Source: Clostridium rhizosphaerae (GTDB lineage Bacteria; Bacillota; Clostridia; Clostridiales; Clostridiaceae). From it: a DNA stretch of 64,000 nt. Below, piece by piece: positions 13,743 to 45,127 of the stretch. The DNA lies in assembly GCF_016765585.1 (NCBI RefSeq), contig NZ_JAESWC010000009.1:1-64000 (forward strand), in the 5' to 3' direction. Under the pieces are notes generated by a model. It ran no database searches, had not been told where the DNA came from, and saw nothing but the letters and a program-made list of their open reading frames with translations. Position 1 is the first letter of the stretch; each line of letters starts with the position of its first letter. The position numbers and the translations under genes are program-made.

Positions 13743-13997
13743 GCATGTTCTTTAAAGTTTAGGAAATCTTCGCTACACATTTTAAGACTAATAATTGTTT
13801 TTTATACAATTCCTAAATCCTATAAACTCGTTTCACTCAGTTCGGGGCAGTTTAGCTTACTCATAGCCATTCGTAAACTGCCCTTGAAAAGCCATTTAGG
13901 CTTTTCAGCAGTATAGGATTCTAAACGGACTTGTATAAAAAATAATTAAAGTCTTACTAATGTTCGCTCAATGTTTCTGCAACTTTAAAGAACATGC
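13743..13997. repeat. 255-bp imperfect inverted repeat containing a hairpin element
   Basis: GCATGTTCTTTAAAGTT at 13743-13759 is repeated in reverse complement at 13981-13997. Inside these ends, further matching segments (AAGACT...TTTTTTATACAA and AATCCTATA) pair imperfectly towards a centre occupied by element copy E. There is no open reading frame. The structure resembles a non-autonomous mobile element in which a smaller hairpin element sits. Confidence 0.7.
13844..13907 (-). repeat. Two-hairpin TAAAT element, copy E
   Basis: Read on the minus strand, TGAAAAGCC and GGCTTTTCA pair around the loop TAAAT. A second hairpin follows, GGGCAGTTTA pairing with TAAACTGCCC. This is the same two-stem plan as copies A-D but with different paired bases. 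Unlike the others, it is not followed by AGGAGG and a start codon. Confidence 0.75.
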
Positions 13998-14201
13998 TAA
14001 GTTTTTGCTATGATACAGTATTCCATTATAATTTTTTGAGCAGAATGATGCGATTATGTGCTATGATATACAGGTAAATATTATGAGAACTTAATTTATA
14101 TAGACTGAGAATATTAAGTTCTCAGTAGTTTTCAGTGGATATAAGTTAATACTCGAAGCCGCTTTTATATACATATTGTGAAACTTAAATAATATAATCA
14201 C

Positions 14202-14292
14202 AGGAGGTTGAAACTCTAAATGAGCTTCAACGGGCAGTTTGAGAGCGGAAACGAGCAAGTATAAACTGCCCAGTGTTCCGAGTAAAGGGAGG
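14202..14292 (+). repeat. Two-hairpin TAAAT element, copy A
   Basis: AGGAGG, then stem 1 (207-216 with 222-231 of 14 kb; one mismatch) with loop TAAAT, then stem 2 GGGCAGTTT/AAACTGCCC enclosing GAGCGGAAACGAG, then AGTGTTCCGAGTAAAGGGAGG. It is joined head to tail with copy B, sharing the GGGAGG between them. Confidence 0.8.
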
Positions 14293-14376
14293 CTAAAGTC
14301 CTAAATGGACTTTAGCGGGTAATTTACGAGTGGAACGAGCGCTCATAAATTACCCAGTGATCTGACAAAAAGGAGG
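14286..14376 (+). repeat. Two-hairpin TAAAT element, copy B, carrying the RBS of the next gene
   Basis: Stem 1 is a perfect 10-bp helix (14292-14301 with 14307-14316) with loop TAAAT. Stem 2 is GGGTAATTT/AAATTACCC. The element ends CAGTGATCTGACAAAAAGGAGG, and that AGGAGG lies five bases before the ATG of the phosphatase gene, so the element forms its 5' untranslated region. Confidence 0.82.
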
Positions 14377-14381
14377 ATACA

Positions 14382-14990
14382 ATGCTTAGATTATATATAA
14401 CAAGACATGGAGAAACTGAGTGGAACATACAGGGGAGAATGCAGGGTTGGAAAAATTCTAATTTGACAACTAAGGGGACTTCTAATGCAAAAGCTTTAGG
14501 AGAATCTTTGAAAAGTGTTGAATTTAACAAGGTATACTGCAGCCCTTTAGATAGAACCAGACATACTGCAGAATTAATACTTTCTGGAAGAGATATACCT
14601 GTAGTATATGACGAAAATTTAAGAGAAATTCATCTTGGTGAACTTGAAGGGTTGAATCAGGAAGAAATAAAAGAAATCTATCCGGAATTTGGAAGTCATT
14701 TTTGGGAAAATCCTCATCTTTATGAAGCAAAGTCTGGAGAAGACTTTTATCATGTAAAAGAAAGAGTTTTAAAGGTTTTAGACAGAATAATCTCTGAAAA
14801 TACTGAAGGCAACATACTTATTGTTACTCATGGGGTTGTACTGAAAACCTTTCATGCGTACTTTAAAAATCTTCCTATGGAGAGACTATGGGATCCGCCT
14901 TTTATATATGATACAAGTTTAACTATTGTTGAAATTGAAAATGGAAAGTCAGAGGTTGTAATTGAAGGTGATATTTCACACTTAAAGTAG
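14382..14990 (+). CDS. Histidine phosphatase family protein (phosphoglycerate mutase-like)
   Basis: The 202-residue protein starts RLYITRHGETEWN, with the catalytic His in the RHGE motif, followed by the conserved Arg in YCSPLDRTRHTAE, Glu in LREIHLGELEG and the second His in NILIVTHGVV. This is the complete active-site set of the branch-1 histidine phosphatases (cobalamin-independent phosphatases, GpmB/PhoE-like, alpha-ribazole phosphatase). The substrate cannot be assigned; no cobalamin genes are adjacent. Two tandem structured elements fill the leader, and the ribosome binding site belongs to the second. Confidence 0.88.
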   Translation: MLRLYITRHGETEWNIQGRMQGWKNSNLTTKGTSNAKALGESLKSVEFNKVYCSPLDRTRHTAELILSGRDIPVVYDENLREIHLGELEGLNQEEIKEIYPEFGSHFWENPHLYEAKSGEDFYHVKERVLKVLDRIISENTEGNILIVTHGVVLKTFHAYFKNLPMERLWDPPFIYDTSLTIVEIENGKSEVVIEGDISHLK

Positions 14991-19974: not shown

Positions 19975-20220
19975 ATAAAGACTGTGAAGAGGAAAAGTAA
20001 ATTAAGGGCTGTCAAAAGAGAGGGAGACTCATCGGCTGAAAGGTTTCCTAGATAAGTGATAATTGAAAAACCACCTCTGAGTTGAGTACTGAAACTATAG
20101 TAGGTATCTCCGCTTGCTGCGTTACAGCTTTCAAAGTGACAGTGATATTTTTATCTATTACTGTAAATTAGGTGGAACCGCGAAATACTCGTCCTATTCT
20201 TAGGAGGAGTTTTTTTATTT
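19975..20220 (+). ncRNA. Threonine T-box leader (stem I and first antiterminator/terminator)
   Basis: The leader carries the AGTA and AGAGAG features of stem I, a CTGAA-ACT-ATAGTAGG segment in which ACT (20094-20096) is the probable threonine specifier codon, the CCGC...GCGTTA region, and the T-box AGGTGGAACCGCGA (20170-20183). A terminator stem ACTCGTCCTA/TAGGAGGAGT (20187-20210) with seven T residues follows. Uncharged tRNA-Thr should stabilise the antiterminator and allow thrS expression. Confidence 0.93.
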
Positions 20221-25032: not shown

Positions 25033-25074
25033 AACCCAGCATCCAAGTTTATTTGGTTGTTGGGCTTTGTTTTT
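25033..25074. terminator. Terminator between convergent genes
   Basis: AACCCAGCATCCAA pairs imperfectly with TTGGTTGTTGGGCTT, with T-rich tails on both strands. Confidence 0.7.
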
Positions 25075-25786
25075 ATTTAATCGAAGGTAGAGTTTCAACA
25101 AAATTATAGAAGTCCTCGTAATTTCCATCATAGTCGGATATAATCTCTTCATTAGTTCTGTGAAGAAGACAATCTTTAATTAAGAAGGTTTTTATTCCAA
25201 GCTCTGAAGCTATTAAATCCTCCTGTACATCATTTCCAACCATCATACATTCTTCAGGTTTTCTTTTGATTTCACTTAAAATTTCCTCATAGTATTTTAC
25301 TTGAGGCTTACAATAATGATTTTTTTCATAGTGGGTAATATATTTGAATTCTGAAGGCTTAAAACCTGCCCATTCTATTCTGTGATGTATGGCCTTTAGA
25401 GGGAAAAGAGGATTAGTGGCTATAATTAACTCGTAGCCTTTTGCTTTTAGTAAATCTACGCTTTTTCTCATAAATTCATTTGGCTGAACAGCTTCTTTAG
25501 CTTTAAAAAATTCTGTATCGTAAAATTTATCAAAGCGCTCCTTGTAAATATCTATATTTCCGGTAATTCTACTGTTAAAATCCTCCATGAATACTTCTTC
25601 GTTAGTTCTGTATTCCAGATTTGAAACCATGGTCTTTGTGGATGCCCATATGTTATTTACTAAGTCTTTAGGAGATATTAAGTCTCCTAGATATGCTGAC
25701 ATAGCACCAAAATAAAGTTTTTCAAAGGCGTCCATATCCATTGGAAGAAGAGTACCATCAAGATCAAAAAGTATTGTATTTAACAT
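25073..25786 (-). CDS. HAD-superfamily hydrolase, subfamily IA
   Basis: The 237-residue protein has the four HAD motifs: FDLDGTLL with the nucleophile Asp, ELIIATNP (motif II), a Lys in YCKPQVKYY (motif III) and MMVGNDVQED (motif IV). A helical cap is inserted after motif I. Probably a phosphatase acting on a small phosphorylated metabolite; the substrate is unknown. The ribosome binding site AAGGAGG, about 13 bases before the ATG, is the 3' end of a two-hairpin element, so the leader is structured. Confidence 0.88.
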   Translation of the reverse strand: MLNTILFDLDGTLLPMDMDAFEKLYFGAMSAYLGDLISPKDLVNNIWASTKTMVSNLEYRTNEEVFMEDFNSRITGNIDIYKERFDKFYDTEFFKAKEAVQPNEFMRKSVDLLKAKGYELIIATNPLFPLKAIHHRIEWAGFKPSEFKYITHYEKNHYCKPQVKYYEEILSEIKRKPEECMMVGNDVQEDLIASELGIKTFLIKDCLLHRTNEEIISDYDGNYEDFYNFVETLPSIK

Positions 25787-25798
25787 AATAAAGTCGTT

Positions 25799-25896
25799 AC
25801 CTCCTTGAAGTCGGAAACACTGAGTAATTTAATACTCTCGCTCCGCTCGAAAATTACTCGTTAAAGTCCATTTAGGACTTTAACCTCCTTGAAGTC
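25799..25896 (-). repeat. Two-hairpin TAAAT element, copy D, flanked by 14-bp direct repeats
   Basis: On the minus strand: GACTTCAAGGAGGT, stem 1 GTTAAAGTCC/GGACTTTAAC with loop TAAAT, stem 2 GAGTAATTT/AAATTACTC enclosing GAGCGGAGCGAG, AGTGTTTCC, then GACTTCAAGGAGGT again. The two 14-base repeats are exact. The second supplies the ribosome binding site of the HAD gene. Confidence 0.85.
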
Positions 25897-44340: not shown

Positions 44341-44432
44341 AGGAGGTTAAAGGTCTAAATGACCTTTAACGAGCAATTAGCGAGCGGAAGCGAGTAATCT
44401 TTAATTGCTCAGTGTTTCCGACTAAAAGGAGG
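44341..44432 (+). repeat. Two-hairpin TAAAT element, copy C, carrying the RBS of the response regulator
   Basis: AGGAGG, perfect stem 1 GTTAAAGGTC/GACCTTTAAC with loop TAAAT, stem 2 GAGCAATTA/TAATTGCTC enclosing GAGCGGAAGCGAG, then AGTGTTTCCGACTAAAAGGAGG. The final AGGAGG is eight bases from the response regulator ATG. The stems differ in sequence from copies A, B and D but conserve pairing. Confidence 0.85.
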
Positions 44433-44440
44433 AATTATAT

Positions 44441-45127
44441 ATGGAAGGAACTATAGGAAAGGTTTTAGTTGTTGACGATGATGAGAATATATGTGAAGTA
44501 ATAAAAATGTATCTTGAAAGTGCAGGTTACTCTACCAGGTTATGTCATGACGGCAGAAGTGCTCAAGAAGCTTTTACTGATTATAAGCCGGATTTAGTGT
44601 TTTTAGATATAATGCTTCCACATGTTGACGGGATAGATGTTTTAAAATGGATAAGAAGAGATTATGAAACTCCAGTTATTATGCTTACTGCAAAAGGAGA
44701 AACTTTTGATAAGGTATTGGGACTAGAATTAGGTGCAGATGATTATATCGTAAAACCTTTTGAACCAAAGGAACTTCTCGCAAGAGCTAAGGCTGTGCTT
44801 AGAAGATATAATACAGAAAATACGAATAAAGAAGTTATAAGCTTTGAAGATTTGGTCATAGATATAAATTCTTATAATGTTTTATATAAGGGACAAGAAA
44901 TCAAAATGCCTCCAAAGGAGTTTGAACTGTTATATTATCTTGCAAATAATAAAAATAGGGTTTTTACAAGAGAACAGCTTCTATGTGAGGTTTGGGGTTA
45001 TGATTATCCTGGAGACTCAAGAACTGTTGACGTACATGTTAAGAGACTTAGAGAAAAACTTGCAGGAGGAGCTAACTGGCAGCTTGAAACCGTATGGGGT
45101 GTAGGATATAAGTTTGAGGTGAAGTAG
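44441..45127 (+). CDS. OmpR/PhoB-family response regulator
   Basis: The 228-residue protein has a receiver domain (VLVVDDDENI acidic pocket, phospho-acceptor Asp in FLDIMLPHVDG, conserved Thr in VIMLTAKGE, Lys in YIVKPFEP) and a C-terminal winged helix (KEFELLYYLANNKNRVFTREQLLCEVWGYDYPGDSRTVDVHVKRLREKL). It should be phosphorylated by the kinase encoded directly after it (its stop codon abuts the next ATG) and probably regulates the downstream htrA. Its leader is a two-hairpin element. Confidence 0.95.
   Translation: MEGTIGKVLVVDDDENICEVIKMYLESAGYSTRLCHDGRSAQEAFTDYKPDLVFLDIMLPHVDGIDVLKWIRRDYETPVIMLTAKGETFDKVLGLELGADDYIVKPFEPKELLARAKAVLRRYNTENTNKEVISFEDLVIDINSYNVLYKGQEIKMPPKEFELLYYLANNKNRVFTREQLLCEVWGYDYPGDSRTVDVHVKRLREKLAGGANWQLETVWGVGYKFEVK

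Follow-up and report, generated by a model that had tools for sequence, protein, structure and literature searches.

A structured repeat of about 85 nt in Clostridium rhizosphaerae that probably inserts after GGAG and carries its own Shine-Dalgarno sequence

Repeat units of the window and their fold

The window, that is the whole 64-kb stretch of C. rhizosphaerae DNA that was analysed, contains a tandem pair of structured repeat units, two single units and a fifth, diverged one (Table 1). The first four had been listed in the original prediction and all of them are present; the fifth, which was not listed, lies away from any ribosome binding site (RBS). The pattern CTAAATG-N10-30-GAGYGGA, which links the two hairpins of a unit, occurs in the window exactly in the four, against 0.01 expected in shuffled sequence, and bears out the two-hairpin plan that they were said to share. 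The tandem units (14202-14292 and 14287-14376) have the middle GGGAGG in common. As for the 3′ AGGAGG, which had been read as the RBS of unrelated genes, this holds at three sites, since the tandem pair counts as one: the ORFs concerned begin at 14382, 25786 (minus strand) and 44441, and their Pfam assignments differ. A T-box leader was also located in the window by Rfam, at 19975-20199 on the plus strand (118.8 bits).

Table 1. Repeat units of the window and the genes behind them (positions are those of the window; scores in bits are given where available)
Feature	Position	Strand	Remarks
Unit 1 of tandem pair	14202..14292	+	5′ AGGAGG, hairpin 1, hairpin 2, 3′ GGGAGG; 92.8 bits
Unit 2 of tandem pair	14287..14376	+	98.6 bits; 3′ AGGAGG serves the ORF at 14382 as RBS
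AGGAGG ending unit 2	14371..14376	+	Present Shine-Dalgarno (SD) sequence of the phosphatase gene
Histidine phosphatase superfamily gene, downstream of tandem pair	14382..14990	+	ORF; Pfam PF00300 (His_Phos_1)
Single unit before HAD hydrolase gene	25800..25889	-	103.9 bits
HAD-like hydrolase gene, downstream of unit	25073..25786	-	ORF; Pfam
Single unit before response-regulator gene	44341..44432	+	108 bits
Response regulator gene, C-terminal DNA-binding domain, downstream of unit	44441..45127	+	ORF; Pfam
Fifth, diverged unit, another subfamily	13826..13913	-	59 bits; between inverted arms GAATCCTATA/TATAGGATT (arms by sight); no RBS there

The unit of ~85 nt folds into two hairpins followed by a tail, TTCCGACTAAA-AGGAG: hairpin 1 has ~10 bp and the loop TAAAT, and hairpin 2 has 9 bp and contains a small upper hairpin. 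Alignment A2 was built from 28 chosen units among the 57 genome-wide matches to a short pattern, at least one of which (L024) is no unit; L002, L005, L007, L009, L012, L020 and L024 were omitted. On this alignment, and unguided, RNAalifold returned hairpin 1, hairpin 2, the small upper hairpin and a three-pair TCC:GGA contact with the 3′ SD. Both stems of the original description were recovered, with two additions: the upper hairpin GY-GGA(A)-RC within the second stem-loop, which had been missed, and a weak third pairing of TCC with the GGA of the 3′ SD itself. In the named structure the 28 units had 98.2% of 610 cells paired, with two-sided changes at 13 of 22 pairs; slid versions of the alignment reached at most 42.4%. 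For 136 matches (133 distinct), in an alignment (A5) fitted to the structure of the model, which favours pairing, 96.4% of 2,841 cells were paired, two-sided changes occurred at 21 of 22 pairs, and 493 cells were two-sided against a shuffled mean of 141. These values agree with the claim that the bases vary among copies and the pairing is kept. Base 6 is G in 140 of the 150 units listed, and it is paired with base 30 in 27 of the 28 aligned units. Strong constraint acts on the structure of the unit, whether because the moving form has to fold or because the RNA is used.

Copies, placement and boundaries in one genome

The covariance model R1 had at least 150 matches in the 4.85-Mb genome of C. 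rhizosphaerae (G000), every candidate scored being a match, so that the search for further copies suggested by the original prediction was productive; a local scan of 61 stretches gave the 136 matches mentioned above, including diverged units outside the 150 listed. The units are both dispersed and tandemly repeated, with four in tandem at one RBS site (C1:381906-382255); those of unrelated loci can have as few as 2 differences in ~90 bases, and tandem neighbours can be identical. With Rfam, no family was placed on any unit of the 64-kb window at the gathering threshold, and only GIR1 (E = 8.3) appeared at a lenient threshold in 14150-14420, consistent with the earlier statement that no described family was recognised. 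No description of such an element was found in the open-access literature and, as far as this literature shows, the element is undescribed. Phages, plasmids and viral contigs gave no unit; a single 29-base match, common to the two phage records, was judged to be chance.

Concerning placement, 112 of the 150 listed units end a site and 38 precede another unit (tandems merged). By a loose criterion, which asks that an ORF of at least 40 codons have its start codon 3-14 nt behind the unit, 103 of the 112 site-ending units stand at an RBS; most of the other nine are composites, several of them visibly running on into an RBS. Under the same criterion, positives were 1,711 of 20,000 random positions (8.6%) and 428 of 1,472 non-unit AGGAG[G/A] motifs (29%); the enrichment before start codons that had been proposed as a check is therefore present. 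The spacing from GGAG to the start codon peaks at 8-9 nt. Among 21 additional, weaker or diverged rows of this genome, picked by eye as missing from the list of 150, 9 stand at an RBS, another 2 lie close to one, and the remaining 10 lie elsewhere. Elsewhere, 14 of 20 units in 800 kb of a genome of the same genus (G001) are at an RBS by the loose criterion, and in genome G148 an SD and a start codon follow 24 of 25 full-length cores examined; the latter come from 18 stretches around high-scoring matches, with 10 short matches omitted, and were judged by a criterion (SD within 100 bases, then a start codon) looser than that used for C. rhizosphaerae.

The 109 proteins encoded downstream are diverse, both by sight and in an all-against-all BLAST, with no evident regulon, and the idea of a regulon was set aside for this reason; by sight they include asparaginyl- and glutamyl-tRNA synthetase, FabD, RecR, CarB and thymidylate synthase, and the sole cluster above two has seven members, ABC ATPases by sight. 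Units have a predicted probability of 0.458 (n = 102) that the SD is unpaired, and native sites one of 0.472 (n = 794; p = 0.68); sequestration of the SD by the unit was rejected, given this equal predicted accessibility.

As for the boundaries, the five bases 5′ of the unit have GGAG as their last four at 73 of the 112 sites and GAG as their last three at 90, the left flank being other than GGAG at 39. The base after the 3′ [AG]GG[AG]G is G at 37 of 37 tandem junctions, and G (71) or A (35) in 106 site-ending units; seven motif-less units were dropped from this count (one of the 38 tandem units, with 106 of the 112 site-ending units kept). A junction base that is always G in tandems, with G or A in site-ending units, would be expected of a unit that starts with G. 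None of the 106 site-ending units has T or C at this base, compared with 85 of 451 native sites, and the next two bases are A in 100 and 88 of the 106, compared with 184 and 188 of the 451; since these A-rich bases exceed the native level, the unit may extend further on the right, its target may be narrower, or the spacer may be under selection. The simplest reading is that the unit begins with G, ends in AGGAG and is inserted after GGAG. At nested sites and tRNA (loop) sites, 2-5 nt of the target appear by eye to be lost, so the boundary rule is not uniform.

Sites that lack the unit were looked for in the same 800 kb of G001; of the best 22 matches, the 10 with an alignment longer than 500 bases that starts within 64 bases of the unit were counted. 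The unit is absent at eight of these ten, including all three sites of the window. A single xGGAGG at RBS distance was found at six of the eight: exactly AGGAGG at C27:44341, C12:916809 and C1:197691; CGGAGG at C6:117350, equal to the CGGAGG found 5′ of the C. rhizosphaerae unit there; and GGGAGG at C27:14287 (the tandem pair of the window) and C25:59969, which may be a paralogue because two other units match the same G001 gene. The exceptions are C7:38272, with only TGGAG, and C27:25800, without GGAG. A unit is present in G001 at C7:18633 (decayed) and C6:315920 (partial; C. rhizosphaerae has further units there). It had been proposed that empty sites would contain one AGGAGG: this was seen to the letter at three of the eight, and as a single xGGAGG at six.

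Relatives and the search for a mobilising gene

A core model, R2, was made from 23 diverse sequences (two-sided changes at 14 of 19 pairs) and applied with strict filters, scoring the best 25 candidates per genome in the family and the best 17 in a sample of the phylum. Matches occurred in 42 of 206 family genomes, C. rhizosphaerae included, with per-genome counts that are lower bounds (at least, up to ~25). The phylum sample gave one genome of 299, C. rhizosphaerae itself, and none of the 298 others, which is weak evidence of absence because few candidates were scored per genome. Five genomes from a second family in the same order also had matches to R1. Units of the RBS type, with the tail TTCCGACTAAAAGGAGG, are present in several genera, and G129, G131, G132 and G135 appear to have one insertion site in common.

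The family is not confined to RBSs; other subfamilies occur in tRNA, 5S and rRNA-spacer sequences and in other repeats. Some lie in the 16S-23S spacer and beside 5S genes, one relative being antisense to the 5S 3′ end (by sight). In three genomes, ~20 first bases of 5S rRNA (by sight) and then a unit stand upstream of a complete 5S gene (L068, L074, L075, L085, L086). By sight, units are found in a tRNA-Asn sequence in Clostridium oryzae DSM 28571 (G034; L203:1315) and G158 (L267), and in tRNA-Ser 3′ sequence in C. rhizosphaerae (L136:13746-13814) and G212 (L268), in or near the T arm. An intron in tRNA was considered and rejected: intact tRNA genes, tRNA-Ser(CGA) and tRNA-Asn, lie near interrupted copies in C. 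rhizosphaerae, C. oryzae and G158, and the C. rhizosphaerae tRNA-Ser copy is, by sight, a 3′ part only. Units are also nested in or beside the upper loop of other units, following GAG or TAG by eye; in G148 one nested composite occupies nine loci, all before start codons, and composites therefore seem to spread as wholes.

Further arrangements were noted. The subfamily with arms like GAATCCTATA/TATAGGATT is also found at L100:19471-19558 and L124:11675-11765, both intergenic and with no RBS; L123:10680-11138 is a six-unit array of a further subfamily, with a GGGCGGAGCC linker, before an ORF; and a long CRISPR array (CRISPR-DR2 repeats) lies at L190:1030-3901 in C. oryzae, ~400 bases from a unit.

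No gene that mobilises the units was found. Of the four families tested, only Y1_Tnp occurs in each of the nine genomes that had more than 20 matches to R2; it is absent from G007, which nevertheless has 7-10 units. No unit was found in flanks of up to 1.5 kb at 32 Y1_Tnp loci searched with R1 and 52 searched with R2 (overlapping sets), and from one high-copy genome to another the Y1 proteins vary in both length and surroundings. Linkage of Y1_Tnp to the units was thus not seen at these loci, and the family is compatible by presence alone. The intact Y1_Tnp gene of C. rhizosphaerae (326 aa; L031, G000:C6:81877-82215) is flanked, by sight, by inverted GGGACGGTTAAC repeats. At L315, L314 and L230 a Y1 transposase-like gene (~190-210 aa) adjoins, by sight, a comM-like gene, and a CCCCAGGGGTG palindrome lies upstream of the one at L315. 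The other three families, compared by presence, were discarded, each being missing from some high-copy genomes: IS110 (the transposase of bridge-RNA elements) had no match in G000, G001, G034, G148 and G162, RVT_1 (reverse transcriptase) none in G001 and G150, both unit-rich, and TnpB none in G001, G034 and G162. A longer autonomous form in C. oryzae was dropped as well, since the flanks common to copies were read by eye as other repeats.

Interpretation and comparison with known systems

Taken together, the unit is probably a non-autonomous structured mobile repeat of ~85 nt, with GGAG as the word after which it inserts and a GGAG of its own. The original idea, that the element enters ribosome binding sites and restores them, gains support from the many copies, their position before start codons, the lack of an Rfam match and the unit-less sites with a single xGGAGG. 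With the G that follows (A)GGAG as its first base and AGGAG as its right end, the unit would insert whole and without target duplication; because it ends in AGGAG, insertion between the SD and the start codon would leave a working SD. The preference for RBSs would reflect in part a true specificity for GGAG and in part survival, since insertion does little harm at an SD. The unit probably works like a single-strand element recognised through its hairpins. An enzyme supplied in trans would recognise the folded strand and move the unit; among known mechanisms, an HUH (Y1)-type single-strand transposase comes closest, none being tied to the unit. Any effect of the unit on translation would be secondary. 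Against this boundary and target rule stand the 39 of 112 left flanks that are not GGAG and the two of eight unit-less G001 sites without GGAGG.

The other explanations differ in which of these elements they give up. Insertion could be indifferent to the SD, so that the units at RBSs are what selection has left over, the AGGAGG at the right end making only that position harmless. The subfamilies in other contexts, the left flanks that are not GGAG, and the 10 of 21 extra diverged rows without a close start codon (with 2 more only near one) point in this direction; yet at 90 of 112 sites the unit follows GAG or GGAG, a copy that translation no longer requires, and nested units, too, follow GAG or TAG (by eye), and we consider this explanation somewhat unlikely. 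The unit could instead be a REP-like or PATE-like element moved by a Y1 enzyme (RAYT or IS200/IS605 TnpA), its recognition word being GGAG by chance: a flanking word, hairpins, chromosomal dispersal and the lack of target duplication would all be expected, and the distribution of Y1_Tnp over the nine high-copy genomes fits. The examined Y1_Tnp genes, however, have no unit near them, the intact one of C. rhizosphaerae is flanked by the other, GGGACGGTTAAC repeats, G007 has units without Y1_Tnp, and the proteins vary in length, so that this account seems unlikely.

A cis-acting translation regulator, spread because it is useful and with a folded leader that binds a protein, an RNA or a metabolite and governs how accessible the SD is, was the second option of the original prediction. 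It would explain the very strong compensatory conservation of the stems, small upper hairpin included, the TCC that RNAalifold pairs with the SD, and the exact placement before start codons; of this reading, only the conserved fold was upheld. The targets look functionally unrelated and predicted SD accessibility is the same as at native sites; moreover, presence differs between two species of one genus, four tandem units stand at one RBS site and six in the array of another subfamily (L123), and relatives are found within tRNA, 5S and rRNA-spacer sequences as well as inside one another, all of which makes such a regulator improbable. Finally, movement at the RNA level, by reverse splicing into SD-bearing RNAs followed by reverse transcription, would suit the RNA-like fold and targets that are often transcribed sites entered in sense orientation; it is scarcely credible given unit-rich genomes (G001, G150) without an RVT_1 match, a relative antisense to the 5S 3′ end (by sight) and the lack of a match to any known Rfam ribozyme family.

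If the insertion of a mobile repeat after GGAG is taken further, the unit might represent a class of mobile element that targets the SD word, carries a replacement SD and moves as a folded single strand by an enzyme not yet described; in one genome it would have reached about a hundred sites before unrelated, partly essential genes, with sister lineages entering tRNA loops, rRNA-operon sequences and their own hairpins. This wider proposal is tentative, and we hold it with less than even confidence. The unit suggests a route by which a repeat can come to stand in front of many important genes, that is by entering the RBS and bringing a spare. Since mobile DNA forms the leader at about 100 sites of one genome, annotation, RBS models and clostridial genetic engineering are affected. 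Same-genus species with and without the unit are natural pairs for measuring the effect of a structured leader on translation, and the missing enzyme would be a candidate tool for insertion at SD sites.

As for known systems, the unit is not filed as REP, MITE or PATE, because not all of the defining features tested were found. PATEs derived from IS200/IS605 have hairpin-bearing ends without a transposase, a fixed target word and no target duplication. The unit resembles them in its left GGAG (73 of 112 sites), its AGGAG right end, the extent of which is uncertain, and the one xGGAGG at six of eight unit-less sites; it differs in that no Y1 enzyme is tied to it and in that the target word recurs at its right end, where it acts as an SD. 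No full TnpA-encoding element with the ends of the unit was seen in the parts of genomes examined. REP/BIME sequences with their RAYT (TnpA-REP) are likewise dispersed, short and palindromic repeats, with a short conserved word beside them. In PMC3733652, which also names the palindromic elements of Rickettsia and in the main text of which the string "clostridi" does not occur, the tag is GTAG or CGTC. In REP/RAYT systems it stands at one end of a palindrome of 20-40 bp, whereas the unit has GGAG on its 5′ side, is ~85 nt long and has two to three hairpins read in one direction. A Y1 (RAYT) gene flanked by the repeat, as in those systems, was not found at the Y1_Tnp loci examined (32 with R1, 52 with R2, overlapping).

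MITEs are similar to the unit in being short, non-autonomous, structured and of high copy number. The text consulted of PMC3049150 gives terminal inverted repeats and target duplications as their features; by sight, the ends of the unit, GTTAAAG and AAAAGGAG, are not inverted copies of each other, and the right end is [A/G]GGAGG even where the left flank is CGGAGG or AAGAGG, which is not a target duplication. The pneumococcal BOX elements, compared by description only, are presented in the same text as modular structured repeats near genes, with variable tandem modules and proposed effects on expression; they resemble the unit in these features, and that description mentions no SD-bearing end. 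Among clostridia, Clop-1 of C. perfringens and Clot-1 of C. tetani are stem-loop families of 93 and 74 nt in the account of PMC2267715. Like the unit, they are intergenic structured clostridial repeats, compared here by description. The palindromic elements of Rickettsia enter coding sequences in frame. These elements are like the unit in that they insert where the function of the host survives; the units enter SD sites instead.
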